Under the pieces are notes generated by a model, which searched no databases, was not told the DNA's origin, and saw nothing but the letters and a program-made list of their open reading frames with translations. Below, piece by piece: positions 1 through 21,400 of a stretch of DNA of 64,000 nucleotides (position 1 is the first letter of the stretch; the number at the start of each line of letters is the position of its first letter). The DNA comes from Tridacna crocea (taxonomy: Eukaryota > Mollusca > Bivalvia > Cardiida > Cardiidae): NCBI GenBank assembly GCA_943736015.1, contig OX031057.1, positions 61,276,001 to 61,340,000 on the forward strand, read 5' to 3'. The position numbers and the translations under genes were made by a program.

Positions 1-151
1 TGCAAGAATTACTTCCCTTAGACCCTCGATGCAAGCCCCCCCCCCCCCCGAAGCACTTCACTGGATTCGCTTTTCTAACTCAGCCCACAATAAATGCTGC
101 ACATTGAAACTTTCAATAAGCCAAAGTGATCAATGTACAGTGTAAAAAAAG
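1..151 (+). repeat. Partial unit at left edge (3' end of a unit)
   Basis: This is the last 151 bp of a unit that begins outside the window. It contains the C14 run at 36-49, the AATAAA hexamer and the GT-rich tail, and matches the end of M1. Confidence 0.95.
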
Positions 152-331
152 CCCCAGAAATTAATGCAACAAATGGCTAAAAAAAGACTGAAAACTCTTT
201 TTGTTGCTTCCTATTGCATATATCAAACAAAGGCAACTGAAGTGTAATTTTTCTAATCTCTTCAAACCGCAACAAGAAACCCAGTTACGTTGACTACAGT
301 CTCATATATGCCAGTTACGCTCATGCGAAAA
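152..331 (+). repeat. Inner subrepeat A (180 bp)
   Basis: It starts CCCCAGAAATTAATG and ends TCATGCGAAAA. It aligns with B over its whole length: CCCCAGAAA start, GTGGCTAAAAAAAGACTGAA-type block, TTGCATA, then TTGACTACRGTCTCA and GCCRGTTACG at the end. It carries a second CAGTTACG 35-40 bp upstream of the terminal one. Confidence 0.85.
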
Positions 332-511
332 CCCCAGAAAATAATGTGACAAGTGGCTAAAAAAAGACTGAATGCTTCTTATTGCATAAATCAAACAAAT
401 GGAACAAAATTTTTAATGTATATTTTTTTCCTCCAATCTCTTTATACCATAAAGACAAGTCTATTTATGTTGACTACGGTCTCAAAGGTGCCGGTTACGT
501 ATCCGTGAAAA
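332..511 (+). repeat. Inner subrepeat B (180 bp)
   Basis: It is exactly 180 bp, like A and C. It shares the 5' block with A and the 3' block (GACTACGGTCTC, GCCGGTTACGTA) with A and C. The transposon in M9 and the deletion in M21 both fall in this subrepeat. Confidence 0.85.
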
Positions 512-691
512 CGCGAAAAATCGACTTACGGAACAGTTCATAGCAGATGACACCTGTTGCTTGATAGGTCAAATATAGGGAACTTAATTTCTAATATCTG
601 TTTTTTACTCCTCTAGCCTTTTTTTACCGTGACAACAAACCCATTTAGGTTGTCTATTGTCTCGCAGGTGCCAGTTACGTACCCGCGAAAA
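512..691 (+). repeat. Inner subrepeat C (180 bp)
   Basis: It starts CGCGAAAAATCGACTTACGG and ends GTACCCGCGAAAA. Its 5' part pairs with D (both AAAAATCGACTTACGGAACA, then TAGCAGAYGACAMCTGTTGCTT), and its 3' part pairs with A and B. It has a pyrimidine tract ending in AG at 615-616. Confidence 0.85.
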
Positions 692-860
692 CATGAAAAA
701 TCGACTTACGGAACATTTTATAGCAGACGACAACTGTTGCTTAAAGTCAATTATAGGGATTTTTCTATTTTTTCTTTTTCATTTTCTCTCACTAGGGCCA
801 ATGATTTGGTTACGATGACCATCTCACCCATACTTGACTGATACGTGCTGCGCATAAAAT
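692..860 (+). repeat. Inner subrepeat D (169 bp)
   Basis: Its first ~50 bp match C closely. The remainder is diverged but keeps GGTTACGATGACC and CATCTCACCC in the place of the terminal conserved block, and ends with a TGCTGCGCA motif shared with E. Confidence 0.75.
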
Positions 861-1030
861 CGTAAAATCAACTTTGACATTTTCGGAGGCAACTGATACC
901 TGTTAAACAAATCAAAGAAAGGTAATCAAAATTTTTCCCTGTTTTCTTACCAGGGTCATGAAAACATTAAACCAATTTTGACGACCGTGCGAGTCAAAAG
1001 TCAATTTTATGTTTAATCGCTGCGCAAAAA
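861..1030 (+). repeat. Inner subrepeat E (170 bp)
   Basis: This is a diverged copy. CGTAAAATCAACTTTGACAT corresponds to the start of D, then GCAACTGATACCTGTT corresponds to the CAACTGTTGCTT region, with TTGACGACCGTGCGAGTC and CGCTGCGCA at the end. Confidence 0.65.
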
Positions 1031-1078
1031 TATAAAATTCAGAAGCAACTGGTTGCTGTTGCGGAAACTTTTTCCGAT
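1031..1078 (+). repeat. Inner subrepeat F (stub)
   Basis: TATAAAATTCAGAAGCAACTG followed by GTTGCTGTTGCGG matches the first quarter of D and E, after which similarity stops. It marks the end of the inner satellite and the start of the unique half of the unit. Confidence 0.5.
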
Positions 1079-1190
1079 AAAAAAATCTTGTTCTTGTTTG
1101 AAGAATTTAGAAGTAGGCCATAAAGATACAATAAGATGTAAGAATAACTAAAAATCAGTTTTTTTCTTTGATAGGGTAGAAAACATTGTG

Positions 1191-1231
1191 GGAAAAGGAG
1201 AAAATGCTGGTAACCTGCATTTCTCCTTTCC
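1191..1231. repeat. 41-bp quasi-palindrome / hairpin
   Basis: The left arm GGAAAAGGAGAAAATGC (1191-1207) and right arm GCATTTCTCCTTTCC (1217-1231) pair over 15 bp with two single-A bulges. The centre TGGTAACCT is itself nearly symmetric. It can form a cruciform in DNA or a hairpin in RNA. It is present in every unit; M35 has one arm change at 60013 (C to T). Confidence 0.8.
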
Positions 1232-1319
1232 TCAGATTATTTTCAAAAGCCTTCTCTTTCAGGGGTGTTAATAAAAGGCGTCATTGTGTGGTAAAAGGTT
1301 AATAAGAATAAACAGATAT

Positions 1320-1326
1320 CCCCCCC
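1320..1326 (+). repeat. C7 tract, length-variable between units
   Basis: This is a run of seven C after GATAT. It is C8 in M10, M17, M18 and M19, and C-T-C6 in M9. The extra base removes the short non-ATG frame that crosses this site in other units, which indicates neutral slippage. Confidence 0.85.
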
Positions 1327-1337
1327 TTTCCCATCAG

Positions 1338-1460
1338 CCAATCAAATCTCTTCCCTCTCTGAAATTATCCAATCAGAGAAGCTTTAAGGAAATCAGAATG
1401 GGAACCAAGAGCCAAAATCAGAATGGGAACCAACAGCCAATCAGATATTCAACAGCCAAT
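1338..1460 (+). promoter_or_regulatory. Cluster of four CCAAT boxes
   Basis: CCAAT occurs at 1338-1342, 1369-1373, 1437-1441 and 1456-1460, each in the context CCAATCA. The first, third and fourth read AGCCAATCA, an excellent fit to the NF-Y consensus RRCCAATSR. A degenerate CCAAAAT lies at 1412. The cluster is conserved in nearly all units; in M17 the second box is CCGAT (29817-29821), and M33, M34 and M37 have CCAATCAAAG. Four same-strand boxes 71-193 bp upstream of a TATA-like element are typical of Pol II promoters. Activity is inferred. Confidence 0.6.
1391..1459 (+). repeat. 25-bp micro-tandem repeat (3 related copies)
   Basis: AATCAGAATGGGAACCAAGA at 1391 recurs at 1416 with period 25. 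A shorter relative (AATCAGATATTCAACAGCCA) follows at 1440. The two junctions with the following AATCAG create the last two CCAAT boxes of the cluster. Confidence 0.85.
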
Positions 1461-1480
1461 CAGAGAGCTTCAAAATCGCT

Positions 1481-1495
1481 CCAAAATGGCGCCAT
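1481..1495. promoter_or_regulatory. ATGGCGCCAT palindrome (YY1/E2F-like)
   Basis: CCAAAATGGCGCCAT contains the perfect 10-bp palindrome ATGGCGCCAT (1486-1495). AAAATGGCG resembles a YY1 site and TGGCGCCA an E2F or NF-I half-site. It lies between the CCAAT cluster and the TATA-like box and was unchanged in all units I compared. Confidence 0.4.
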
Positions 1496-1513
1496 AATTT
1501 ATCGAAAAAAACA

Positions 1514-1524
1514 GTGAAAAAAAA
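1514..1524 (+). repeat. A-run after CAGTG, 9 or 8 A
   Basis: The A run between CAGTG and CGGCATAAAAG is nine in M1-M17, M19, M23, M27 and M37. It is eight in most units from M20 on, and M18 has A8 followed by CC. It works as a haplotype marker and shifts any reading frame crossing it. Confidence 0.8.
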
Positions 1525-1528
1525 ACGG

Positions 1529-1536
1529 CATAAAAG
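1529..1536 (+). promoter_or_regulatory. TATA-like box CATAAAAG
   Basis: CATAAAAG sits about 70 bp downstream of the last CCAAT box, in GC-flanked context (CGG upstream, TGG downstream). The spacing would place a start of transcription near 1558-1568. The box is intact in all units. This is a candidate, not a demonstrated promoter. Confidence 0.5.
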
Positions 1537-1560
1537 TGGATTTAAAGTCTTCTTTAAAGG

Positions 1561-1611
1561 CTGCTGTGCAGTCCTTGGCGAACTGCCAGGCATGCACCAT
1601 CCACACATGCC
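1561..1611 (+). other. Hairpin-rich segment of the putative transcript
   Basis: Three short hairpins lie in a row: CTGC-TGT-GCAG (1561-1571); CTTGGC-GAACT-GCCAGG (1574-1590, six pairs with one G-T); and GGCATG...CATGCC (1589-1611, six pairs, 11-nt loop). The last two share 1589-1590, so they would be alternatives. No tRNA, snRNA or snoRNA signature was recognised. Confidence 0.35.
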
Positions 1612-1730
1612 AGATTTCACTGAAAATGGGCAAACATTTAAGAAAATAGGGGCGCAGCAGACCTCGTTATGGTCTTTTGAAGCCCCTTGCAAGAATGCAA
1701 GAATTACTTCCCTTAGACCCTCGATGCAAG

Positions 1731-1744
1731 CCCCCCCCCCCCCC
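1731..1744 (+). repeat. Poly-C tract C14 (C8-C16 across units)
   Basis: This is an uninterrupted C14 run between GATGCAAG and GAAGCAC. Lengths are 14 in the left-edge unit and M1-M8, 10 in M9, C10T in M10, 13-14 in M11-M16, 11-12 in M17-M20 and 9-16 afterwards. M25 and M28 are interrupted by a G, M24 by a T. Several late units lack the following G. The complementary strand is a G run able to form quadruplex, and the C strand an i-motif. Confidence 0.95.
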
Positions 1745-1783
1745 GAAGCACTTCACTGGATTCGCTTTTCTAACTCAGCCCAC

Positions 1784-1838
1784 AATAAATGCTGCACATT
1801 GAAACTTTCAATAAGCCAAAGTGATCAATGTACAGTGT
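1784..1838 (+). terminator. AATAAA hexamer with GT-rich tail
   Basis: AATAAA at 1784-1789 is followed about 35-50 bp later by GTGATCAATGTACAGTGT, a plausible downstream GU-rich element. It is the natural 3' end of the transcription unit suggested by the CCAAT/TATA module. In AT-rich DNA the hexamer alone is weak evidence. Confidence 0.35.
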
Positions 1839-1846
1839 AAAAAAAG

Positions 1847-4800
1847 CCCCAGAAATTAATGCAACAAATGGCTAAAAAAAGACTGAAAACTCTTTTTGTT
1901 GCTTCCTATTGCATATATCAAACAAAGGCAACTGAAGTGTAATTTTTCTAATCTCTTCAAACCGCAACAAGAAACCCAGTTACGTTGACTACAGTCTCAT
2001 ATATGCCAGTTACGCTCATGCGAAAACCCCAGAAAATAATGTGACAAGTGGCTAAAAAAAGACTGAATGCTTCTTATTGCATAAATCAAACAAATGGAAC
2101 AAAATTTTTAATGTATATTTTTTTCCTCCAATCTCTTTATACCATAAAGACAAGTCTATTTATGTTGACTACGGTCTCAAAGGTGCCGGTTACGTATCCG
2201 TGAAAACGCGAAAAATCGACTTACGGAACAGTTCATAGCAGATGACACCTGTTGCTTGATAGGTCAAATATAGGGAACTTAATTTCTAATATCTGTTTTT
2301 TACTCCTCTAGCCTTTTTTTACCGTGACAACAAACCCATTTAGGTTGTCTATTGTCTCGCAGGTGCCAGTTACGTACCCGCGAAAACATGAAAAATCGAC
2401 TTACGGAACATTTTATAGCAGACGACAACTGTTGCTTAAAGTCAATTATAGGGATTTTTCTATTTTTTCTTTTTCATTTTCTCTCACTAGGGCCAATGAT
2501 TTGGTTACGATGACCATCTCACCCATACTTGACTGATACGTGCTGCGCATAAAATCGTAAAATCAACTTTGACATTTTCGGAGGCAACTGATACCTGTTA
2601 AACAAATCAAAGAAAGGTAATCAAAATTTTTCCCTGTTTTCTTACCAGGGTCATGAAAACATTAAACCAATTTTGACGACCGTGCGAGTCAAAAGTCAAT
2701 TTTATGTTTAATCGCTGCGCAAAAATATAAAATTCAGAAGCAACTGGTTGCTGTTGCGGAAACTTTTTCCGATAAAAAAATCTTGTTCTTGTTTGAAGAA
2801 TTTAGAAGTAGGCCATAAAGATACAATAAGATGTAAGAATAACTAAAAATCAGTTTTTTTCTTTGATAGGGTAGAAAACATTGTGGGAAAAGGAGAAAAT
2901 GCTGGTAACCTGCATTTCTCCTTTCCTCAGATTATTTTCAAAAGCCTTCTCTTTCAGGGGTGTTAATAAAAGGCGTCATTGTGTGGTAAAAGGTTAATAA
3001 GAATAAACAGATATCCCCCCCTTTCCCATCAGCCAATCAAATCTCTTCCCTCTCTGAAATTATCCAATCAGAGAAGCTTTAAGGAAATCAGAATGGGAAC
3101 CAAGAGCCAAAATCAGAATGGGAACCAACAGCCAATCAGATATTCAACAGCCAATCAGAGAGCTTCAAAATCGCTCCAAAATGGCGCCATAATTTATCGA
3201 AAAAAACAGTGAAAAAAAAACGGCATAAAAGTGGATTTAAAGTCTTCTTTAAAGGCTGCTGTGCAGTCCTTGGCGAACTGCCAGGCATGCACCATCCACA
3301 CATGCCAGATTTCACTGAAAATGGGCAAACATTTAAGAAAATAGGGGCGCAGCAGACCTCGTTATGGTCTTTTGAAGCCCCTTGCAAGAATGCAAGAATT
3401 ACTTCCCTTAGACCCTCGATGCAAGCCCCCCCCCCCCCCGAAGCACTTCACTGGATTCGCTTTTCTAACTCAGCCCACAATAAATGCTGCACATTGAAAC
3501 TTTCAATAAGCCAAAGTGATCAATGTACAGTGTAAAAAAAGCCCCAGAAATTAATGCAACAAATGGCTAAAAAAAGACTGAAAACTCTTTTTGTTGCTTC
3601 CTATTGCATATATCAAACAAAGGCAACTGAAGTGTAATTTTTCTAATCTCTTCAAACCGCAACAAGAAACCCAGTTACGTTGACTACAGTCTCATATATG
3701 CCAGTTACGCTCATGCGAAAACCCCAGAAAATAATGTGACAAGTGGCTAAAAAAAGACTGAATGCTTCTTATTGCATAAATCAAACAAATGGAACAAAAT
3801 TTTTAATGTATATTTTTTTCCTCCAATCTCTTTATACCATAAAGACAAGTCTATTTATGTTGACTACGGTCTCAAAGGTGCCGGTTACGTATCCGTGAAA
3901 ACGCGAAAAATCGACTTACGGAACAGTTCATAGCAGATGACACCTGTTGCTTGATAGGTCAAATATAGGGAACTTAATTTCTAATATCTGTTTTTTACTC
4001 CTCTAGCCTTTTTTTACCGTGACAACAAACCCATTTAGGTTGTCTATTGTCTCGCAGGTGCCAGTTACGTACCCGCGAAAACATGAAAAATCGACTTACG
4101 GAACATTTTATAGCAGACGACAACTGTTGCTTAAAGTCAATTATAGGGATTTTTCTATTTTTTCTTTTTCATTTTCTCTCACTAGGGCCAATGATTTGGT
4201 TACGATGACCATCTCACCCATACTTGACTGATACGTGCTGCGCATAAAATCGTAAAATCAACTTTGACATTTTCGGAGGCAACTGATACCTGTTAAACAA
4301 ATCAAAGAAAGGTAATCAAAATTTTTCCCTGTTTTCTTACCAGGGTCATGAAAACATTAAACCAATTTTGACGACCGTGCGAGTCAAAAGTCAATTTTAT
4401 GTTTAATCGCTGCGCAAAAATATAAAATTCAGAAGCAACTGGTTGCTGTTGCGGAAACTTTTTCCGATAAAAAAATCTTGTTCTTGTTTGAAGAATTTAG
4501 AAGTAGGCCATAAAGATACAATAAGATGTAAGAATAACTAAAAATCAGTTTTTTTCTTTGATAGGGTAGAAAACATTGTGGGAAAAGGAGAAAATGCTGG
4601 TAACCTGCATTTCTCCTTTCCTCAGATTATTTTCAAAAGCCTTCTCTTTCAGGGGTGTTAATAAAAGGCGTCATTGTGTGGTAAAAGGTTAATAAGAATA
4701 AACAGATATCCCCCCCTTTCCCATCAGCCAATCAAATCTCTTCCCTCTCTGAAATTATCCAATCAGAGAAGCTTTAAGGAAATCAGAATGGGAACCAAGA

Positions 4801-7800
4801 GCCAAAATCAGAATGGGAACCAACAGCCAATCAGATATTCAACAGCCAATCAGAGAGCTTCAAAATCGCTCCAAAATGGCGCCATAATTTATCGAAAAAA
4901 ACAGTGAAAAAAAAACGGCATAAAAGTGGATTTAAAGTCTTCTTTAAAGGCTGCTGTGCAGTCCTTGGCGAACTGCCAGGCATGCACCATCCACACATGC
5001 CAGATTTCACTGAAAATGGGCAAACATTTAAGAAAATAGGGGCGCAGCAGACCTCGTTATGGTCTTTTGAAGCCCCTTGCAAGAATGCAAGAATTACTTC
5101 CCTTAGACCCTCGATGCAAGCCCCCCCCCCCCCCGAAGCACTTCACTGGATTCGCTTTTCTAACTCAGCCCACAATAAATGCTGCACATTGAAACTTTCA
5201 ATAAGCCAAAGTGATCAATGTACAGTGTAAAAAAAGCCCCAGAAATTAATGCAACAAATGGCTAAAAAAAGACTGAAAACTCTTTTTGTTGCTTCCTATT
5301 GCATATATCAAACAAAGGCAACTGAAGTGTAATTTTTCTAATCTCTTCAAACCGCAACAAGAAACCCAGTTACGTTGACTACAGTCTCATATATGCCAGT
5401 TACGCTCATGCGAAAACCCCAGAAAATAATGTGACAAGTGGCTAAAAAAAGACTGAATGCTTCTTATTGCATAAATCAAACAAATGGAACAAAATTTTTA
5501 ATGTATATTTTTTTCCTCCAATCTCTTTATACCATAAAGACAAGTCTATTTATGTTGACTACGGTCTCAAAGGTGCCGGTTACGTATCCGTGAAAACGCG
5601 AAAAATCGACTTACGGAACAGTTCATAGCAGATGACACCTGTTGCTTGATAGGTCAAATATAGGGAACTTAATTTCTAATATCTGTTTTTTACTCCTCTA
5701 GCCTTTTTTTACCGTGACAACAAACCCATTTAGGTTGTCTATTGTCTCGCAGGTGCCAGTTACGTACCCGCGAAAACATGAAAAATCGACTTACGGAACA
5801 TTTTATAGCAGACGACAACTGTTGCTTAAAGTCAATTATAGGGATTTTTCTATTTTTTCTTTTTCATTTTCTCTCACTAGGGCCAATGATTTGGTTACGA
5901 TGACCATCTCACCCATACTTGACTGATACGTGCTGCGCATAAAATCGTAAAATCAACTTTGACATTTTCGGAGGCAACTGATACCTGTTAAACAAATCAA
6001 AGAAAGGTAATCAAAATTTTTCCCTGTTTTCTTACCAGGGTCATGAAAACATTAAACCAATTTTGACGACCGTGCGAGTCAAAAGTCAATTTTATGTTTA
6101 ATCGCTGCGCAAAAATATAAAATTCAGAAGCAACTGGTTGCTGTTGCGGAAACTTTTTCCGATAAAAAAATCTTGTTCTTGTTTGAAGAATTTAGAAGTA
6201 GGCCATAAAGATACAATAAGATGTAAGAATAACTAAAAATCAGTTTTTTTCTTTGATAGGGTAGAAAACATTGTGGGAAAAGGAGAAAATGCTGGTAACC
6301 TGCATTTCTCCTTTCCTCAGATTATTTTCAAAAGCCTTCTCTTTCAGGGGTGTTAATAAAAGGCGTCATTGTGTGGTAAAAGGTTAATAAGAATAAACAG
6401 ATATCCCCCCCTTTCCCATCAGCCAATCAAATCTCTTCCCTCTCTGAAATTATCCAATCAGAGAAGCTTTAAGGAAATCAGAATGGGAACCAAGAGCCAA
6501 AATCAGAATGGGAACCAACAGCCAATCAGATATTCAACAGCCAATCAGAGAGCTTCAAAATCGCTCCAAAATGGCGCCATAATTTATCGAAAAAAACAGT
6601 GAAAAAAAAACGGCATAAAAGTGGATTTAAAGTCTTCTTTAAAGGCTGCTGTGCAGTCCTTGGCGAACTGCCAGGCATGCACCATCCACACATGCCAGAT
6701 TTCACTGAAAATGGGCAAACATTTAAGAAAATAGGGGCGCAGCAGACCTCGTTATGGTCTTTTGAAGCCCCTTGCAAGAATGCAAGAATTACTTCCCTTA
6801 GACCCTCGATGCAAGCCCCCCCCCCCCCCGAAGCACTTCACTGGATTCGCTTTTCTAACTCAGCCCACAATAAATGCTGCACATTGAAACTTTCAATAAG
6901 CCAAAGTGATCAATGTACAGTGTAAAAAAAGCCCCAGAAATTAATGCAACAAATGGCTAAAAAAAGACTGAAAACTCTTTTTGTTGCTTCCTATTGCATA
7001 TATCAAACAAAGGCAACTGAAGTGTAATTTTTCTAATCTCTTCAAACCGCAACAAGAAACCCAGTTACGTTGACTACAGTCTCATATATGCCAGTTACGC
7101 TCATGCGAAAACCCCAGAAAATAATGTGACAAGTGGCTAAAAAAAGACTGAATGCTTCTTATTGCATAAATCAAACAAATGGAACAAAATTTTTAATGTA
7201 TATTTTTTTCCTCCAATCTCTTTATACCATAAAGACAAGTCTATTTATGTTGACTACGGTCTCAAAGGTGCCGGTTACGTATCCGTGAAAACGCGAAAAA
7301 TCGACTTACGGAACAGTTCATAGCAGATGACACCTGTTGCTTGATAGGTCAAATATAGGGAACTTAATTTCTAATATCTGTTTTTTACTCCTCTAGCCTT
7401 TTTTTACCGTGACAACAAACCCATTTAGGTTGTCTATTGTCTCGCAGGTGCCAGTTACGTACCCGCGAAAACATGAAAAATCGACTTACGGAACATTTTA
7501 TAGCAGACGACAACTGTTGCTTAAAGTCAATTATAGGGATTTTTCTATTTTTTCTTTTTCATTTTCTCTCACTAGGGCCAATGATTTGGTTACGATGACC
7601 ATCTCACCCATACTTGACTGATACGTGCTGCGCATAAAATCGTAAAATCAACTTTGACATTTTCGGAGGCAACTGATACCTGTTAAACAAATCAAAGAAA
7701 GGTAATCAAAATTTTTCCCTGTTTTCTTACCAGGGTCATGAAAACATTAAACCAATTTTGACGACCGTGCGAGTCAAAAGTCAATTTTATGTTTAATCGC

Positions 7801-10800
7801 TGCGCAAAAATATAAAATTCAGAAGCAACTGGTTGCTGTTGCGGAAACTTTTTCCGATAAAAAAATCTTGTTCTTGTTTGAAGAATTTAGAAGTAGGCCA
7901 TAAAGATACAATAAGATGTAAGAATAACTAAAAATCAGTTTTTTTCTTTGATAGGGTAGAAAACATTGTGGGAAAAGGAGAAAATGCTGGTAACCTGCAT
8001 TTCTCCTTTCCTCAGATTATTTTCAAAAGCCTTCTCTTTCAGGGGTGTTAATAAAAGGCGTCATTGTGTGGTAAAAGGTTAATAAGAATAAACAGATATC
8101 CCCCCCTTTCCCATCAGCCAATCAAATCTCTTCCCTCTCTGAAATTATCCAATCAGAGAAGCTTTAAGGAAATCAGAATGGGAACCAAGAGCCAAAATCA
8201 GAATGGGAACCAACAGCCAATCAGATATTCAACAGCCAATCAGAGAGCTTCAAAATCGCTCCAAAATGGCGCCATAATTTATCGAAAAAAACAGTGAAAA
8301 AAAAACGGCATAAAAGTGGATTTAAAGTCTTCTTTAAAGGCTGCTGTGCAGTCCTTGGCGAACTGCCAGGCATGCACCATCCACACATGCCAGATTTCAC
8401 TGAAAATGGGCAAACATTTAAGAAAATAGGGGCGCAGCAGACCTCGTTATGGTCTTTTGAAGCCCCTTGCAAGAATGCAAGAATTACTTCCCTTAGACCC
8501 TCGATGCAAGCCCCCCCCCCCCCCGAAGCACTTCACTGGATTCGCTTTTCTAACTCAGCCCACAATAAATGCTGCACATTGAAACTTTCAATAAGCCAAA
8601 GTGATCAATGTACAGTGTAAAAAAAGCCCCAGAAATTAATGCAACAAATGGCTAAAAAAAGACTGAAAACTCTTTTTGTTGCTTCCTATTGCATATATCA
8701 AACAAAGGCAACTGAAGTGTAATTTTTCTAATCTCTTCAAACCGCAACAAGAAACCCAGTTACGTTGACTACAGTCTCATATATGCCAGTTACGCTCATG
8801 CGAAAACCCCAGAAAATAATGTGACAAGTGGCTAAAAAAAGACTGAATGCTTCTTATTGCATAAATCAAACAAATGGAACAAAATTTTTAATGTATATTT
8901 TTTTCCTCCAATCTCTTTATACCATAAAGACAAGTCTATTTATGTTGACTACGGTCTCAAAGGTGCCGGTTACGTATCCGTGAAAACGCGAAAAATCGAC
9001 TTACGGAACAGTTCATAGCAGATGACACCTGTTGCTTGATAGGTCAAATATAGGGAACTTAATTTCTAATATCTGTTTTTTACTCCTCTAGCCTTTTTTT
9101 ACCGTGACAACAAACCCATTTAGGTTGTCTATTGTCTCGCAGGTGCCAGTTACGTACCCGCGAAAACATGAAAAATCGACTTACGGAACATTTTATAGCA
9201 GACGACAACTGTTGCTTAAAGTCAATTATAGGGATTTTTCTATTTTTTCTTTTTCATTTTCTCTCACTAGGGCCAATGATTTGGTTACGATGACCATCTC
9301 ACCCATACTTGACTGATACGTGCTGCGCATAAAATCGTAAAATCAACTTTGACATTTTCGGAGGCAACTGATACCTGTTAAACAAATCAAAGAAAGGTAA
9401 TCAAAATTTTTCCCTGTTTTCTTACCAGGGTCATGAAAACATTAAACCAATTTTGACGACCGTGCGAGTCAAAAGTCAATTTTATGTTTAATCGCTGCGC
9501 AAAAATATAAAATTCAGAAGCAACTGGTTGCTGTTGCGGAAACTTTTTCCGATAAAAAAATCTTGTTCTTGTTTGAAGAATTTAGAAGTAGGCCATAAAG
9601 ATACAATAAGATGTAAGAATAACTAAAAATCAGTTTTTTTCTTTGATAGGGTAGAAAACATTGTGGGAAAAGGAGAAAATGCTGGTAACCTGCATTTCTC
9701 CTTTCCTCAGATTATTTTCAAAAGCCTTCTCTTTCAGGGGTGTTAATAAAAGGCGTCATTGTGTGGTAAAAGGTTAATAAGAATAAACAGATATCCCCCC
9801 CTTTCCCATCAGCCAATCAAATCTCTTCCCTCTCTGAAATTATCCAATCAGAGAAGCTTTAAGGAAATCAGAATGGGAACCAAGAGCCAAAATCAGAATG
9901 GGAACCAACAGCCAATCAGATATTCAACAGCCAATCAGAGAGCTTCAAAATCGCTCCAAAATGGCGCCATAATTTATCGAAAAAAACAGTGAAAAAAAAA
10001 CGGCATAAAAGTGGATTTAAAGTCTTCTTTAAAGGCTGCTGTGCAGTCCTTGGCGAACTGCCAGGCATGCACCATCCACACATGCCAGATTTCACTGAAA
10101 ATGGGCAAACATTTAAGAAAATAGGGGCGCAGCAGACCTCGTTATGGTCTTTTGAAGCCCCTTGCAAGAATGCAAGAATTACTTCCCTTAGACCCTCGAT
10201 GCAAGCCCCCCCCCCCCCCGAAGCACTTCACTGGATTCGCTTTTCTAACTCAGCCCACAATAAATGCTGCACATTGAAACTTTCAATAAGCCAAAGTGAT
10301 CAATGTACAGTGTAAAAAAAGCCCCAGAAATTAATGCAACAAATGGCTAAAAAAAGACTGAAAACTCTTTTTGTTGCTTCCTATTGCATATATCAAACAA
10401 AGGCAACTGAAGTGTAATTTTTCTAATCTCTTCAAACCGCAACAAGAAACCCAGTTACGTTGACTACAGTCTCATATATGCCAGTTACGCTCATGCGAAA
10501 ACCCCAGAAAATAATGTGACAAGTGGCTAAAAAAAGACTGAATGCTTCTTATTGCATAAATCAAACAAATGGAACAAAATTTTTAATGTATATTTTTTTC
10601 CTCCAATCTCTTTATACCATAAAGACAAGTCTATTTATGTTGACTACGGTCTCAAAGGTGCCGGTTACGTATCCGTGAAAACGCGAAAAATCGACTTACG
10701 GAACAGTTCATAGCAGATGACACCTGTTGCTTGATAGGTCAAATATAGGGAACTTAATTTCTAATATCTGTTTTTTACTCCTCTAGCCTTTTTTTACCGT

Positions 10801-13711
10801 GACAACAAACCCATTTAGGTTGTCTATTGTCTCGCAGGTGCCAGTTACGTACCCGCGAAAACATGAAAAATCGACTTACGGAACATTTTATAGCAGACGA
10901 CAACTGTTGCTTAAAGTCAATTATAGGGATTTTTCTATTTTTTCTTTTTCATTTTCTCTCACTAGGGCCAATGATTTGGTTACGATGACCATCTCACCCA
11001 TACTTGACTGATACGTGCTGCGCATAAAATCGTAAAATCAACTTTGACATTTTCGGAGGCAACTGATACCTGTTAAACAAATCAAAGAAAGGTAATCAAA
11101 ATTTTTCCCTGTTTTCTTACCAGGGTCATGAAAACATTAAACCAATTTTGACGACCGTGCGAGTCAAAAGTCAATTTTATGTTTAATCGCTGCGCAAAAA
11201 TATAAAATTCAGAAGCAACTGGTTGCTGTTGCGGAAACTTTTTCCGATAAAAAAATCTTGTTCTTGTTTGAAGAATTTAGAAGTAGGCCATAAAGATACA
11301 ATAAGATGTAAGAATAACTAAAAATCAGTTTTTTTCTTTGATAGGGTAGAAAACATTGTGGGAAAAGGAGAAAATGCTGGTAACCTGCATTTCTCCTTTC
11401 CTCAGATTATTTTCAAAAGCCTTCTCTTTCAGGGGTGTTAATAAAAGGCGTCATTGTGTGGTAAAAGGTTAATAAGAATAAACAGATATCCCCCCCTTTC
11501 CCATCAGCCAATCAAATCTCTTCCCTCTCTGAAATTATCCAATCAGAGAAGCTTTAAGGAAATCAGAATGGGAACCAAGAGCCAAAATCAGAATGGGAAC
11601 CAACAGCCAATCAGATATTCAACAGCCAATCAGAGAGCTTCAAAATCGCTCCAAAATGGCGCCATAATTTATCGAAAAAAACAGTGAAAAAAAAACGGCA
11701 TAAAAGTGGATTTAAAGTCTTCTTTAAAGGCTGCTGTGCAGTCCTTGGCGAACTGCCAGGCATGCACCATCCACACATGCCAGATTTCACTGAAAATGGG
11801 CAAACATTTAAGAAAATAGGGGCGCAGCAGACCTCGTTATGGTCTTTTGAAGCCCCTTGCAAGAATGCAAGAATTACTTCCCTTAGACCCTCGATGCAAG
11901 CCCCCCCCCCCCCCGAAGCACTTCACTGGATTCGCTTTTCTAACTCAGCCCACAATAAATGCTGCACATTGAAACTTTCAATAAGCCAAAGTGATCAATG
12001 TACAGTGTAAAAAAAGCCCCAGAAATTAATGCAACAAATGGCTAAAAAAAGACTGAAAACTCTTTTTGTTGCTTCCTATTGCATATATCAAACAAAGGCA
12101 ACTGAAGTGTAATTTTTCTAATCTCTTCAAACCGCAACAAGAAACCCAGTTACGTTGACTACAGTCTCATATATGCCAGTTACGCTCATGCGAAAACCCC
12201 AGAAAATAATGTGACAAGTGGCTAAAAAAAGACTGAATGCTTCTTATTGCATAAATCAAACAAATGGAACAAAATTTTTAATGTATATTTTTTTCCTCCA
12301 ATCTCTTTATACCATAAAGACAAGTCTATTTATGTTGACTACGGTCTCAAAGGTGCCGGTTACGTATCCGTGAAAACGCGAAAAATCGACTTACGGAACA
12401 GTTCATAGCAGATGACACCTGTTGCTTGATAGGTCAAATATAGGGAACTTAATTTCTAATATCTGTTTTTTACTCCTCTAGCCTTTTTTTACCGTGACAA
12501 CAAACCCATTTAGGTTGTCTATTGTCTCGCAGGTGCCAGTTACGTACCCGCGAAAACATGAAAAATCGACTTACGGAACATTTTATAGCAGACGACAACT
12601 GTTGCTTAAAGTCAATTATAGGGATTTTTCTATTTTTTCTTTTTCATTTTCTCTCACTAGGGCCAATGATTTGGTTACGATGACCATCTCACCCATACTT
12701 GACTGATACGTGCTGCGCATAAAATCGTAAAATCAACTTTGACATTTTCGGAGGCAACTGATACCTGTTAAACAAATCAAAGAAAGGTAATCAAAATTTT
12801 TCCCTGTTTTCTTACCAGGGTCATGAAAACATTAAACCAATTTTGACGACCGTGCGAGTCAAAAGTCAATTTTATGTTTAATCGCTGCGCAAAAATATAA
12901 AATTCAGAAGCAACTGGTTGCTGTTGCGGAAACTTTTTCCGATAAAAAAATCTTGTTCTTGTTTGAAGAATTTAGAAGTAGGCCATAAAGATACAATAAG
13001 ATGTAAGAATAACTAAAAATCAGTTTTTTTCTTTGATAGGGTAGAAAACATTGTGGGAAAAGGAGAAAATGCTGGTAACCTGCATTTCTCCTTTCCTCAG
13101 ATTATTTTCAAAAGCCTTCTCTTTCAGGGGTGTTAATAAAAGGCGTCATTGTGTGGTAAAAGGTTAATAAGAATAAACAGATATCCCCCCCTTTCCCATC
13201 AGCCAATCAAATCTCTTCCCTCTCTGAAATTATCCAATCAGAGAAGCTTTAAGGAAATCAGAATGGGAACCAAGAGCCAAAATCAGAATGGGAACCAACA
13301 GCCAATCAGATATTCAACAGCCAATCAGAGAGCTTCAAAATCGCTCCAAAATGGCGCCATAATTTATCGAAAAAAACAGTGAAAAAAAAACGGCATAAAA
13401 GTGGATTTAAAGTCTTCTTTAAAGGCTGCTGTGCAGTCCTTGGCGAACTGCCAGGCATGCACCATCCACACATGCCAGATTTCACTGAAAATGGGCAAAC
13501 ATTTAAGAAAATAGGGGCGCAGCAGACCTCGTTATGGTCTTTTGAAGCCCCTTGCAAGAATGCAAGAATTACTTCCCTTAGACCCTCGATGCAAGCCCCC
13601 CCCCCCCCCGAAGCACTTCACTGGATTCGCTTTTCTAACTCAGCCCACAATAAATGCTGCACATTGAAACTTTCAATAAGCCAAAGTGATCAATGTACAG
13701 TGTAAAAAAAG
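1847..13711 (+). repeat. Units M2-M8, seven 1,695-bp copies identical to M1
   Basis: Unit starts are 1847, 3542, 5237, 6932, 8627, 10322 and 12017. Because four units equal 6,780 bp, lines 1-6780 and 6781-13560 can be compared base for base, and I saw no difference, including the C14 run. All sub-features described for M1 recur at +1,695 steps. Such identity implies very recent amplification or homogenisation, or assembler copying. Confidence 0.93.
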
Positions 13712-13977
13712 CCCCAGAAATTAATGCAACAAATGGCTAAAAAAAGACTGAAAACTCTTTTTGTTGCTTCCTATTGCATATATCAAACAAAGGCAACTGA
13801 AGTGTAATTTTTCTAATCTCTTCAAACCGCAACAAGAAACCCAGTTACGTTGACTACAGTCTCATATATGCCAGTTACGCTCATGCGAAAACCCCAGAAA
13901 ATAATGTGACAAGTGGCTAAAAAAAGACTGAATGCTTCTTATTGCATAAATCAAACAAATGGAACAAAATTTTTAAT

Positions 13978-13983
13978 GTATAT
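13978..13983 (+). repeat. Target-site duplication GTATAT, left copy
   Basis: GTATAT occurs once at this place in uninterrupted units (418-423 in M1) and on both sides of the insertion here. The duplication is exactly 6 bp. Confidence 0.93.
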
Positions 13984-13999
13984 CAGTGCTCTCAATAAG
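13984..13999 (+). repeat. Left terminal inverted repeat (16 bp)
   Basis: CAGTGCTCTCAATAAG is the exact reverse complement of 15298-15313. With one inserted base, similarity extends a few bases inward (GGAC on the left, CGGAC read inward from the right). Confidence 0.95.
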
Positions 14000-14009
14000 G
14001 GACCATTTC

Positions 14010-14070
14010 AGGAATTTTTGTAATTCCATGTTCAAATTTTAGGAATTTTTTTTAAAAAATCAGGAATTTT
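14010..14070 (+). repeat. Left subterminal repeats AGGAATTTT x3
   Basis: AGGAATTTT is found at 14010, 14041 and 14062, with an inverted partial copy (AATTCC) near 14022. Clustered short repeats just inside a TIR are typical transposase-binding sites in hAT elements; that role is inferred here. Confidence 0.6.
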
Positions 14071-15120
14071 TTTTCCACATCGGTCAATGTGGTCTTGAGC
14101 TTAGATTTATTTTGATTGTGTTGCGGAATGACCAACCTTATGTTGTGGTTACACTAAAGTTTTATCCAGGAAGACATGTCCTTAGAATAACCATATATTG
14201 GGGGTAAAAATGCATATACATGTATATCTATAACAAAACTGATCATGACATGTGATTGGCTGGTAACTTAAGGTGGTATAATTCTCATGGAAAACAGCTA
14301 TTTCCACTATAATAATTATAATCCTAAAAAAAAGTTGCTACAATTGAAAATGAGCATTTTTGTACTACTTTGACCGAGCCACTTTTTCCATTTTTTTCCT
14401 TTTAAAAATTATCATTTATAAATCTAGGGCCACTCTATTTTCATTACAAAAGGAAATAAGAATTACCTCCCTTTTCTGAAAAAAGAACAAAATATCAACA
14501 AATATCTTCAAGATGGACATCAAATAAATTTCTGGTCCATTAGAAATGTGCAAAAATATTATACCATTATAAATCCTTATTTATCAATTAATAAGAAATT
14601 TCATTCCATTTTGCGCTAGAAGTGTTAGGATGGTAATAACTGAAGAATTATAACCATAACCATGTTTCATAATTGTTAAAATGACGTGTTGCACAACAGC
14701 CTGTTTCTTTCTTCATTTGTTTCAAACCAAGTGAACATGCGAAACCATCCATCTTGTATTTTTGATGTGCATGGATTTCTTTGAGTTTCCTAGTGGATTA
14801 TGGAAGACACGTATTTCAGACAGACGTGAATTCCTTCGTAAACGACGGTCACGTCGCACAATGATTCTTTCAAAAAAAAAAACTCCTTTATAAGTACGCT
14901 GCATAATTCCCGAAAGAAATCTATCGCTGCAGTCAAATTAAAGACGATTGCTTACTAAGTGATCTTAATTGATGGACCAATTAAACACGTACCATAATCC
15001 GGTCATAAATTGGATAAACAATCGCATATGTGTAATTGTCATCGGTACACCGTAATCTGGATCACCAAAACGCTTTTACATGACTATAGAGGCTCTTTGT
15101 AAAGCGCCTTCCTTACATTG
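14071..15120. other. Transposon interior, no gene recognised
   Basis: This is about 1 kb of AT-rich sequence with no protein motif I recognise. A 60-codon ATG frame on the minus strand (14722-14904) has no recognisable domain. AATTACCTCCCTT at 14461-14473 is a motif I associate with mollusc repeats. A CATATACATGTATAT palindromic patch lies near 14213-14227 and an A11 run near 14872-14882. Confidence 0.5.
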
Positions 15121-15123
15121 AAT

Positions 15124-15296
15124 GGACGTTATCGAAGTTTTCCACACGCGTCAAACCCTTTGTGCATTAAAAAAAAAAAACGTCCGGGTTGAAATTCTCG
15201 GACGTTTTTGTCATAATATGGACGTTAAAAAAACGTCCGACTTGGAAAATGCCGACGTTTTTTCTAAAAATTTGGACGTAATACACGTCGACGTCC
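15124..15296 (+). repeat. Right subterminal GGACGT/ACGTCC array with hairpins
   Basis: GGACGT lies at 15124, 15200, 15220 and 15274, ACGTCC at 15180, 15233 and 15291, and a variant CGACGT at 15253. Inverted pairs form hairpins: AAAAACGTCCG (15176-15186) with CGGACGTTTTT (15199-15209), 11 bp; and GGACGTT (15220-15226) with AACGTCC (15232-15238), 7 bp. A 10-bp palindrome ACGTCGACGT lies at 15285-15294. Transposase binding is the likely role. Confidence 0.75.
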
Positions 15297-15297
15297 G

Positions 15298-15313
15298 CTT
15301 ATTGAGAGCACTG
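15298..15313 (-). repeat. Right terminal inverted repeat (16 bp)
   Basis: CTTATTGAGAGCACTG is the perfect inverse of the left end and is followed at once by the second GTATAT. Confidence 0.95.
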
Positions 15314-15319
15314 GTATAT
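15314..15319 (+). repeat. Target-site duplication GTATAT, right copy
   Basis: This is the second copy of the 6-bp target. The subrepeat B sequence resumes here in register with other units. Confidence 0.93.
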
Positions 15320-16738
15320 TTTTTTCCTCAATCTCTTTATACCATAAAGACAAGTCTATTTATGTTGACTACGGTCTCAAAGGTGCCGGTTACGTATCCG
15401 TGAAAACGCGAAAAATCGACTTACGGAACAGTTCATAGCAGATGACACCTGTTGCTTGATAGGTCAAATATAGGGAATTTAATTTCTAATATCTGTTTTT
15501 TACTCCTCTAGCCTTTTTTTACCGTGACAACAAACCCATTTAGGTTGTCTATTGTCTCGCAGGTGCCAGTTACGTACCCGCGAAAACATGAAAAATCGAC
15601 TTACGGAACATTTTATAGCAGACGACAACTGTTGCTTAAAGTCAATTATAGGGATTTTTCTATTTTTTCTTTTTCATTTTCTCTCACTAGGGCCAATGAT
15701 TTGGTTACGATGACCATCTCACCCATACTTGACTGATACGTGCTGCGCATAAAATCGTAAAATCAACTTTGACATTTTCGGAGGCAACTGATACCTGTTA
15801 AACAAATCAAAGAAAGGTAATCAAAATTTTTCCCTGTTTTCTTACCAGGGTCATGAAAACATTAAACCAATTTTGACGACCGTGCGAGTCAAAAGTCAAT
15901 TTTATGTTTAATCGCTGCGCAAAAATATAAAATTCAGAAGCAACTGGTTGCTGTTGCGGAAACTTTTTCCGATAAAAAAATCTTGTTCTTGTTTGAAGAA
16001 TTTAGAAGTAGGCCATAAAGATACAATAAGATGTAAGAATAACTAAAAATCAGTTTTTTTCTTTGATAGGGTAGAAAACATTGTGGGAAAAGGAGAAAAT
16101 GCTGGTAACCTGCATTTCTCCTTTCCTCAGATTATTTTCAAAAGCCTTCTCTTTCAGGGGTGTTAATAAAAGGCGTCATTGTGTGGTAAAAGGTTAATAA
16201 GAATAAACAGATATCTCCCCCCTTTCCCATCAGCCAATCAAATCTCTTCCCTCTCTGAAATTATCCAATCAGAGAAGCTTTAAGGAAATCAGAATGGGAA
16301 CCAAGAGCCAAAATCAGAATGGGAACCAACAGCCAATCAGATATTCAACAGCCAATCAGAGAGCTTCAAAATCGCTCCAAAATGGCGCCATAATTTATCG
16401 AAAAAAACAGTGAAAAAAAAACGGCATAAAAGTGGATTTAAAGTCTTCTTTAAAGGCTGCTGTGCAGTCCTTGGCGAACTGCCAGGCATGCACCATCCAC
16501 ACATGCCAGATTTCACTGAAAATGGGCAAACATTTAAGAAAATAGGGGCGCAGCAGACCTCGTTATGGTCTTTTGAAGCCCCTTGCAAGAATGCAAGAAT
16601 TACTTCCCTTAGACCCTCGATGCAAGCCCCCCCCCCGAAGCACTTCACTGGATTCGCTTTTCTAACTCAGCCCACAATAAATGCTGCACATTGAAACTTT
16701 CAATAAGCCAAAGTGATCAATGTACAGTGTAAAAAAAG

Positions 16739-18431
16739 CCCCAGAAATTAATGCAACAAATGGCTAAAAAAAGACTGAAAACTCTTTTTGTTGCTTCCTA
16801 TTGCATATATCAAACAAAGGCAACTGAAGTGTAATTTTTCTAATCTCTTCAAACCGCAACAAGAAACCCAGTTACGTTGACTACAGTCTCATATATGCCA
16901 GTTACGCTCATGCGAAAACCCCAGAAAATAATGTGACAAGTGGCTAAAAAAAGACTGAATGCTTCTTATTGCATAAATCAAACAAATGGAACAAAATTTT
17001 TAATGTATATTTTTTTCCTCCAATCTCTTTATACCATAAAGACAAGTCTATTTATGTTGACTACGGTCTCAAAGGTGCCGGTTACGTATCCGTGAAAACG
17101 CGAAAAATCGACTTACGGAACAGTTCATAGCAGATGACACCTGTTGCTTGATAGGTCAAATATAGGGAACTTAATTTCTAATATCTATTTTTTACTCCTC
17201 TAGCCTTTTTTTACCGTGACAACAAACCCATTTAGGTTGTCTATTGTCTCGCAGGTGCCAGTTACGTACCCGCGAAAACATGAAAAATCGACTTACGGAA
17301 CATTTTATAGCAGACGACAACTGTTGCTTAAAGTCAATTATAGGGATTTTTCTATTTTTTCTTTTTCATTTTCTCTCACTAGGGCCAATGATTTGGTTAC
17401 GATGACCATCTCACCCATACTTGACTGATACGTGCTGCGCATAAAATCGTAAAATCAACTTTGACATTTTCGGAGGCAACTGATACCTGTTAAACAAATC
17501 AAAGAAAGGTAATCAAAATTTTTCCCTGTTTTCTTACCAGGGTCATGAAAACATTAAACCAATTTTGACGACCGTGCGAGTCAAAAGTCAATTTTATGTT
17601 TAATCGCTGCGCAAAAATATAAAATTCAGAAGCAACTGGTTGCTGTTGCGGAAACTTTTTCCGATAAAAAAATCTTGTTCTTGTTTGAAGAATTTAGAAG
17701 TAGGCCATAAAGATACAATAAGATGTAAGAATAACTAAAAATCAGTTTTTTTCTTTGATAGGGTAGAAAACATTGTGGGAAAAGGAGAAAATGCTGGTAA
17801 CCTGCATTTCTCCTTTCCTCAGATTATTTTCAAAAGCCTTCTCTTTCAGGGGTGTTAATAAAAGGCGTCATTGTGTGGTAAAAGGTTAATAAGAATAAAC
17901 AGATATCCCCCCCCTTTCCCATCAGCCAATCAAATCTCTTCCCTCTCTGAAATTATCCAATCAGAGAAGCTTTAAGGATATCAGAATGGGAACCAAGAGC
18001 CAAAATCAGAATGGGAACCAACAGCCAATCAGATATTCAACAGCCAATCAGAGAGCTTCAAAATCGCTCCAAAATGGCGCCATAATTTATCGAAAAAAAC
18101 AGTGAAAAAAAAACGGCATAAAAGTGGATTTAAAGTCTTCCTTAAAGGCTGCTGTGCAGTCCTTGGCGAACTGCCAGGCATGCACCATCCACACATGCCA
18201 GATTTCACTGAAAATGGGCAAACATTTAAGAAAATAGGGGCGCAGCAGACCACGTTATGGTCTTTTGAAGCCCCTTGCAAGAATGCAAGAATTACTTCCC
18301 TTAGACCCTCGATGCAAGCCCCCCCCCCTGAAGCACTTCACTGGATTCGCTTTTCTAACTCAGCCCACAATAAATGCTGCACATTGAAACTTTCAATAAG
18401 CCAAAGTGATCAATGTACAGTGTAAAAAAAG
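16739..18431 (+). repeat. Unit M10 (1,693 bp), most private changes in the left half
   Basis: It differs from M1 by A at 17187, T at 17979, C at 18141, A at 18252 and a C10-T run ending at 18329, and it has C8 in the first C tract. It is the next unit to the right of the transposon-bearing one. Confidence 0.93.
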
Positions 18432-21400
18432 CCCCAGAAATTAATGCAACAAATGGCTAAAAAAAGACTGAAAACTCTTTTTGTTGCTTCCTATTGCATA
18501 TATCAAACAAAGGCAACTGAAGTGTAATTTTTCTAATCTCTTCAAACCGCAACAAGAAACCCAGTTACGTTGACTACAGTCTCATATATGCCAGTTACGC
18601 TCATGCGAAAACCCCAGAAAATAATGTGACAAGTGGCTAAAAAAAGACTGAATGCTTCTTATTGCATAAATCAAACAAATGGAACAAAATTTTTAATGTA
18701 TATTTTTTTCCTCCAATCTCTTTATACCATAAAGACAAGTCTATTTATGTTGACTACGGTCTCAAAGGTGCCGGTTACGTATCCGTGAAAACGCGAAAAA
18801 TCGACTTACGGAACAGTTCATAGCAGATGACACCTGTTGCTTGATAGGTCAAATATAGGGAACTTAATTTCTAATATCTGTTTTTTACTCCTCTAGCCTT
18901 TTTTTACCGTGACAACAAACCCATTTAGGTTGTCTATTGTCTCGCAGGTGCCAGTTACGTACCCGCGAAAACATGAAAAATCGACTTACGGAACATTTTA
19001 TAGCAGACGACAACTGTTGCTTAAAGTCAATTATAGGGATTTTTCTATTTTTTCTTTTTCATTTTCTCTCACTAGGGCCAATGATTTGGTTACGATGACC
19101 ATCTCACCCATACTTGACTGATACGTGCTGCGCATAAAATCGTAAAATCAACTTTGACATTTTCGGAGGCAACTGATACCTGTTAAACAAATCAAAGAAA
19201 GGTAATCAAAATTTTTCCCTGTTTTCTTACCAGGGTCATGAAAACATTAAACCAATTTTGACGACCGTGCGAGTCAAAAGTCAATTTTATGTTTAATCGC
19301 TGCGCAAAAATATAAAATTCAGAAGCAACTGGTTGCTGTTGCGGAAACTTTTTCCGATAAAAAAATCTTGTTCTTGTTTGAAGAATTTAGAAGTAGGCCA
19401 TAAAGATACAATAAGATGTAAGAATAACTAAAAATCAGTTTTTTTCTTTGATAGGGTAGAAAACATTGTGGGAAAAGGAGAAAATGCTGGTAACCTGCAT
19501 TTCTCCTTTCCTCAGATTATTTTCAAAAGCCTTCTCTTTCAGGGGTGTTAATAAAAGGCGTCATTGTGTGGTAAAAGGTTAATAAGAATAAACAGATATC
19601 CCCCCCTTTCCCATCAGCCAATCAAATCTCTTCCCTCTCTGAAATTATCCAATCAGAGAAGCTTTAAGGAAATCAGAATGGGAACCAAGAGCCAAAATCA
19701 GAATGGGAACCAACAGCCAATCAGATATTCAACAGCCAATCAGAGAGCTTCAAAATCGCTCCAAAATGGCGCCATAATTTATCGAAAAAAACAGTGAAAA
19801 AAAAACGGCATAAAAGTGGATTTAAAGTCTTCTTTAAAGGCTGCTGTGCAGTCCTTGGCGAACTGCCAGGCATGCACCATCCACACATGCCAGATTTCAC
19901 TGAAAATGGGCAAACATTTAAGAAAATAGGGGCGCAGCAGACCTCGTTATGGTCTTTTGAAGCCCCTTGCAAGAATGCAAGAATTACTTCCCTTAGACCC
20001 TCGATGCAAGCCCCCCCCCCCCCGAAGCACTTCACTGGATTCGCTTTTCTAACTCAGCCCACAATAAATGCTGCACATTGAAACTTTCAATAAGCCAAAG
20101 TGATCAATGTACAGTGTAAAAAAAGCCCCAGAAATTAATGCAACAAATGGCTAAAAAAAGACTGAAAACTCTTTTTGTTGCTTCCTATTGCATATATCAA
20201 ACAAAGGCAACTGAAGTGTAATTTTTCTAATCTCTTCAAACCGCAACAAGAAACCCAGTTACGTTGACTACAGTCTCATATATGCCAGTTACGCTCATGC
20301 GAAAACCCCAGAAAATAATGTGACAAGTGGCTAAAAAAAGACTGAATGCTTCTTATTGCATAAATCAAACAAATGGAACAAAATTTTTAATGTATATTTT
20401 TTTCCTCCAATCTCTTTATACCATAAAGACAAGTCTATTTATGTTGACTACGGTCTCAAAGGTGCCGGTTACGTATCCGTGAAAACGCGAAAAATCGACT
20501 TACGGAACAGTTCATAGCAGATGACACCTGTTGCTTGATAGGTCAAATATAGGGAACTTAATTTCTAATATCTGTTTTTTACTCCTCTAGCCTTTTTTTA
20601 CCGTGACAACAAACCCATTTAGGTTGTCTATTGTCTCGCAGGTGCCAGTTACGTACCCGCGAAAACATGAAAAATCGACTTACGGAACATTTTATAGCAG
20701 ACGACAACTGTTGCTTAAAGTCAATTATAGGGATTTTTCTATTTTTTCTTTTTCATTTTCTCTCACTAGGGCCAATGATTTGGTTACGATGACCATCTCA
20801 CCCATACTTGACTGATACGTGCTGCGCATAAAATCGTAAAATCAACTTTGACATTTTCGGAGGCAACTGATACCTGTTAAACAAATCAAAGAAAGGTAAT
20901 CAAAATTTTTCCCTGTTTTCTTACCAGGGTCATGAAAACATTAAACCAATTTTGACGACCGTGCGAGTCAAAAGTCAATTTTATGTTTAATCGCTGCGCA
21001 AAAATATAAAATTCAGAAGCAACTGGTTGCTGTTGCGGAAACTTTTTCCGATAAAAAAATCTTGTTCTTGTTTGAAGAATTTAGAAGTAGGCCATAAAGA
21101 TACAATAAGATGTAAGAATAACTAAAAATCAGTTTTTTTCTTTGATAGGGTAGAAAACATTGTGGGAAAAGGAGAAAATGCTGGTAACCTGCATTTCTCC
21201 TTTCCTCAGATTATTTTCAAAAGCCTTCTCTTTCAGGGGTGTTAATAAAAGGCGTCATTGTGTGGTAAAAGGTTAATAAGAATAAACAGATATCCCCCCC
21301 TTTCCCATCAGCCAATCAAATCTCTTCCCTCTCTGAAATTATCCAATCAGAGAAGCTTTAAGGAAATCAGAATGGGAACCAAGAGCCAAAATCAGAATGG

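Follow-up and report, generated by a model that had tools for sequence, protein, structure and literature searches.

The window, a 64,000-nucleotide stretch of the Tridacna crocea genome (C2:61276001-61340000; 1.05 Gb in 31 contigs), is one tandem array on the forward strand, which fills positions 1-64000 except for a single inserted element. The array starts abruptly at 61,268,687 and ends near 61,490,161 on C2, a span of ∼221 kb, and decayed pieces of it reach up to 61,504,689 on the right. Anchor spacing places the first complete unit, of 1,695 bp, at window positions 1-1695. There are 37 unit anchors in the window, and 34 of the 36 intervals between them measure 1,689-1,697 bp; the other two, of 3,031 and 1,579 bp, are due to the inserted element and to a deletion. 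Over the whole array, 114 repeats (1,662-1,696 bp) align across at least 1,600 bp, and 112 of them are more than 98% identical to the window's first unit. Identity is mostly 99-100% and drops to 94.6%, 89%, and 86% at the right edge. With its 1.69-kb unit in a homogenised head-to-tail array of this length, the locus has the makeup of a macrosatellite.

Each unit contains a smaller repeat. Monomers A (152-331), B (332-511), and C (512-691) are each exactly 180 bp, as the initial annotation had stated, and are followed on the same strand by D (692-861) and a decayed E (862-1031). The length of D varies from 163 to 170 bp with the placement of its end. Monomer similarity declines with distance along the unit, from 67% identity for A-B to 63% for B-C and 51% for C-D; A and C share 54%. 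None of 1000 dinucleotide shuffles reached any of these four local scores, including the three among A, B, and C, for which similarity no better than shuffled had been named beforehand as a refuting outcome. The similarity of D to A (220 of 1000 shuffles as good) and to B (865 of 1000) is not above chance, so D is linked to the family via C. E is weak in pairwise comparison (1, 11, 20, and 88 per 1000 shuffles against B, C, A, and D, respectively); a profile of the window's A-D alone detects it, with E = 0.005 for the window and ∼1e-11 for another array, L033, in which E is better preserved. The stub after 1031 has no clear relation to the monomers (best pair, E-stub, 26 of 1000 shuffles). In an ungapped self-comparison of 152-1078 at offsets of 120-399, identity exceeds 36% only at 180 (46.3%) and 360 (37.4%). 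Diverged monomers in a fixed order, 51-67% identical between neighbours from A to D, thus lie within a far more uniform larger unit, the organisation of a higher-order repeat.

Several copies of the unit have been altered individually. The 1,579-bp unit (window 34917-36594) owes its length to a deletion of ∼114 bp inside monomer B, bounded by unit positions 399 and 514. A 1,330-bp insert in one unit (window 13984-15313) has CAGTGCTCTCAATAAG as its inverted ends, shows a duplicated 6-bp target, GTATAT, and looks like a non-autonomous DNA transposon. Elsewhere in the array, two copies of an LTR retrotransposon of ∼5.6 kb with LTRs of ∼520 bp (99% alike) lie at C2 61436741-61442352 and 61459467-61465073. 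Both sit at unit position 591-595, in units 22.7 kb apart, and they are 99.9% identical; a block of ∼13 units was therefore duplicated after the insertion.

The rest of the unit is made of other material. The segment at 1160-1302 corresponds to the 3' half of a dispersed, MITE-like element that has a palindromic core and may be piggyBac-like. Dispersed copies start near TTAAC-NC-NTTACCA and end near GGTAANGGGTTAA. To the left of the array, 42 kb contain 39 non-overlapping copies, or ∼1 per kb; the 15 kb on the right contain five, one of which is a decayed unit. The 1.05-Gb genome has 183,553 exact matches to the 31-bp core of the dispersed form, ∼1 per 5.7 kb. Downstream lies a promoter-like block (1325-1495) of CCAATCA boxes on one strand followed by AAAATGGCGCC, a YY1-like site. 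RRCCAATSR occurs 149 times in the window against 10.95 expected, a count that comes from one unit copied 37 times and so does not represent 149 independent sites. CCAATCA on one strand only (0 on the other) and AAAATGGYGCC are found in all ten arrays sampled (see below), and the number and spacing of the boxes vary by array, with one to five upstream of the first YY1-like site and, in one case, a box downstream. A 25-bp duplication at 1390-1440 falls in a stretch that is poorly conserved in most other arrays. The initial annotation had the unit capture ∼770 bp of unrelated, promoter-like DNA. Promoter-like DNA is indeed present as real sequence, with putative promoter activity; the non-monomer part can now be identified in part, and the segment at 1160-1302 belongs to the MITE.

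Conservation between arrays is high at ∼226-360, 991-1215, and 1531-1620. The last of these stretches, with a mean identity of 0.93-0.96 over nine arrays, has no match to a known RNA or protein. A search of window 1-20000 against Rfam gave 12 matches, all far below the gathering scores (BSR0626, 33 bits versus 155; trpB, 32 versus 59), and ARAGORN returned 0 in the window; known RNA genes were rejected on these scores, and the array is not a tandem RNA gene array or rDNA spacer with a known RNA gene in each unit. Protein coding was likewise rejected: an open reading frame at 1514-1840 has no Pfam family (best E of 0.16, below the cut-off), and its frame is shifted in two of the ten arrays.

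The array belongs to a family that extends across the genome. A 31-base monomer core has 13,315 copies (7,000 on one strand and 6,315 on the other; none for the reversed control), and a 21-base mark that occurs once per window unit has 14,738 (8,602 and 6,136; control, 0), a lower bound because units altered in the 21-mer escape the count. At ∼1.7 kb per unit, the family amounts to ∼25 Mb, or 2.4% of the genome. The core marks do not outnumber the unit marks, which gives no hint of monomer-only arrays. Five exact searches with variant cores found 1,661, 1,893, 333, 258, and 9 copies. Among the matches listed, which are complete for the 9-copy core, sites occur on at least 11 of the 31 contigs (C1-C10 and C13). 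On C2, they lie at 8.2, 11.6-11.9, 55.2, and 61.3 Mb; C13 has single marks, at which array size is not visible, at 1.9, 4.9, 35.4, and 40.2 Mb; on C4 (31.8 and 32.2 Mb) and C7 (12.9-15.9 Mb), neighbouring sites lie within a few Mb. Contig C31 carries COX1 at 26,516-27,850 with three in-frame TGA codons and is presumed to be mitochondrial; at 27.8 kb or more, it would be large for an animal mitochondrion unless it is a concatemer. A literature search, a weak test with queries that omitted the species name, found no description of the repeat.

Nine further arrays (L031-L039: one on C1, one on C2 at 8.2 Mb, four on C6, two on C7, and one on C8) were sampled from the matches listed, mostly via variant cores and thus not at random. 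Each aligns, at 78-94% identity, over 1,632-1,695 of the unit's 1,695 positions. Unit periods differ between arrays: ∼1,666 bp (C1), 1,643 bp (C2, 8.2 Mb), 1,678 bp (C8), 1,858 bp (C6, 11.1 Mb), 2,037 bp (C2, 11.7 Mb), and 2,096 bp (C6, 6.9 Mb). In a tree of 43 monomers from the ten arrays, the grouping mainly follows monomer type and not array of origin; the exceptions are four monomers, from the more diverged L032, L033, and L035, which are placed near the D group. This clustering bears out the earlier description of the 1.69-kb unit as a higher-order repeat, and that of a satellite within a satellite stands as well. All ten samples also contain the non-monomer part, which together with the clustering by type indicates that the monomer order, the MITE part, and the CCAAT block were joined before the arrays diverged and spread.

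Monomer number is not fixed. Sampled blocks have four or five monomers above the score cut, and one edge block has up to seven. Monomers have been gained as extra A-type copies and as duplications of 166-168 bp at the array's right edge, and two C6 arrays carry tandem copies of unit positions 1-172. We read the varying monomer number and the duplications as marks of unequal exchange. In L033 (763-1351; C6, 1.28 Mb), oppositely oriented units abut head to head and form an inversion junction within the array. Diversity within the window's array is 0.0036 for A, 0.0041 for B, 0.0052 for C, 0.0057 for D, 0.0038 for E, and 0.0030 for the CCAAT block, with no sign of special constraint on the monomers.

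The left edge of the array suggests one way in which a site may be acquired. Dispersed MITE sequence there gives way to exact unit sequence from within a shared run of ∼36 bp, forming a hybrid of the MITE and the unit's own MITE part. The exact hybrid string has a single genome copy, the edge itself, in a search made narrow by the variant letters of other arrays. This structure, seen once, fits recombination between two MITEs as a putative mechanism. The flank just upstream of the array is weakly unit-like (four of 1000 shuffles as good; none of 1098 other flank windows, the best scoring 23 against 24), and this likeness leaves a second reading of the edge, in which the flank may be an old unit that retains the full MITE.

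The initial annotation took the equal lengths of A, B, and C, kept while their sequences drift, as evidence of selection on spacing. Other arrays of the family do not bear this out. One block from each of the ten arrays and five right-edge blocks yielded 51 start-to-start spacings, with a mean of 179.9 bp, an SD of 9.9 bp, and a range of 157-204 bp. Exactly 180 bp was found for 14 and 178-182 bp for 26; ten of the 14 belong to the array of the window, its right edge included. The exact lengths hold in the window's array and nearly so in two C7 relatives, and not across the family. In alignments of the A and B types, three of the more diverged arrays have an A of 184-185 bp. B measures 186-202 bp in five arrays with an additional 18-bp segment, which is absent from the window and from the two C7 arrays. 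Most simply, A and B of the window would have arrived at 180 bp by separate deletions.

Indels offer a second view of the same question. Between arrays, the signs of indels in monomers of the same type show no compensation for A (ratio 1.24; 42 of 45 pairs kept after removal of indel-free pairs), B (0.94; 43 of 45), or C (1.02; 33 of 36), compared with 1.03 for 285 control chunks from the rest of the unit; indels longer than 40 columns were excluded. D has a ratio of 0.69 (42 of 45 pairs), which six of 1000 random-sign trials matched. Pairs within an array appear length-compensated (7 of 1000 trials for the window's A-B-C, 1 of 1000 for all within-array pairs), although these pairs are few in number or of shared ancestry, and their compensation is not matched between arrays for A, B, or C. 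Selection on spacing was therefore rejected. The equal lengths of 180 bp seem to be a chance feature of this locus, and most likely nothing maintains monomer length. The within-array compensation, the behaviour of D, and the mean of 179.9 bp leave room for a weak length constraint that may act on the monomers.

A periodic signal in the monomers is suggestive of nucleosomes. WW power at 10.0-10.6 bp in A-D, a value inflated by repetition, was reached by 0 of 200 shuffles, and that of the rest of the unit by 35 of 200. The strongest of 39 harmonics is a period of 10.59 bp, and the strongest mean period over the 43 monomers is 10.5 bp, which is what nucleosome-related selection would predict. The best period varies among single monomers.

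These observations make it likely that the array is one of a genome-wide, multi-locus, higher-order satellite family, with a composite unit that includes a MITE fragment and a CCAAT/YY1-like block and is homogenised within each array, and most likely without any control of monomer length. The course of events and the mode of exchange, as we infer them, would begin with monomers of ∼150-205 bp that diverged into types A to E and were then joined to non-monomer DNA with the MITE fragment and the CCAAT/YY1-like block. The composite unit of 1.6-2.1 kb would have become the unit of amplification and spread to many chromosomal sites, where unequal exchange and conversion would have homogenised each array separately. 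The common MITE within every unit may help arrays to join new sites.

Other readings account for parts of the data. The arrays could be a transcribed macrosatellite, in which a CCAAT/YY1-type Pol II promoter in each unit would drive a non-coding RNA, either cis-acting or a source for small-RNA silencing. The strand-constant boxes and AAAATGGYGCC in every sampled array, the excess of RRCCAATSR, and the well-conserved stretch at 1531-1620 immediately downstream of the block would all suit such a role. However, the boxes differ in number and spacing between arrays, no RNA family was found, and the low diversity of the CCAAT block is nearly equalled by that of A and E. We hold this reading to be possible, and on balance unlikely. 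The macrosatellites D4Z4 and DXZ4, which occupy one or a few loci, resemble the array in having a kilobase-scale unit, more than 100 near-identical copies, and promoter-like motifs, whereas the Tridacna family is spread over many sites, with 14,738 or more unit marks, and no protein was found in it.

Alternatively, a non-autonomous Helentron-like element (HINE), with central repeats of 140-180 bp between constant flanks, may have been amplified in tandem and later become a satellite. The architecture is similar, a run of monomers between constant flanks, and the Cg_HINE elements and Cg170/HindIII satellite of the Pacific oyster have repeats of 140-180 bp between constant flanks, in arrays mostly of five monomers or fewer within dispersed elements (PMC7492417). 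Compared by description, the two systems also share a link between mobile elements and satellite DNA, but whole units form long tandem arrays in T. crocea and the oyster arrays are short and dispersed (PMC7492417). Within the ∼57 kb of flank covered, no dispersed single copy was seen left of the array, where apart from the MITE part no unit sequence was found in ∼42 kb; the right-hand pieces resemble decayed array, and element ends are not visible inside a tandem array. This origin seems distinctly unlikely.

A more ambitious version of the preferred reading, a genome-wide composite satellite family, would give its captured parts functions: recombination between MITEs would seed new sites, and the promoter block would keep the arrays transcribed and open to exchange. 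Such a scheme would account for the large number of sites, the hybrid at the left edge, and the constant strand of the CCAAT boxes, and we regard it as a speculative and improbable one.

The initial annotation had also pointed to centromeric satellites, of which a nucleosome-scale period is typical. In a centromeric reading, the ∼180-bp monomers would phase CENP-A nucleosomes in arrays marking centromeres or their surroundings; monomer scale, higher-order organisation, array-specific variants, the WW period of 10.5-10.6 bp, and the close sites on C4 and C7 speak for it, but it is distinctly unlikely, since monomer length is not kept, the window has no CENP-B-like box with up to one mismatch (0 against 6.39 expected by chance), and the far-apart sites on C2, C6, and C13 among the matches listed argue against a single centromeric array per chromosome. 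No feature found marks the arrays as centromeres, and a centromere is not likely to be their sole role. In higher-order-repeat satellites such as primate alpha satellite, nucleosome-scale monomers stand in fixed order in a larger homogenised unit. The Tridacna family shares this plan and the array-specific variants; it differs in that about half of its unit is non-monomer DNA, several sites occur per contig, and the window lacks the CENP-B-like box.

Among bivalves, an abundant satellite at intercalary sites of several chromosomes has a parallel in SSUsat of Spisula subtruncata, which makes up at least 1.3% of that genome (PMC5537241). By that description, SSUsat differs in its 315-bp monomer, and no higher-order organisation is reported in it (PMC5537241).

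For the composite family in T. crocea, the ten array samples within one genome serve as replicates. Monomer length differs between sister arrays within the family, and equal repeat lengths in one array are thus a poor sign of spacing selection. If the scheme of seeding through MITEs were true, the MITE would give each array homology to hundreds of thousands of places. In this genome, nucleosome-scale monomers, a mobile-element fragment, and promoter-like DNA have been fused in one unit that spread to many sites.
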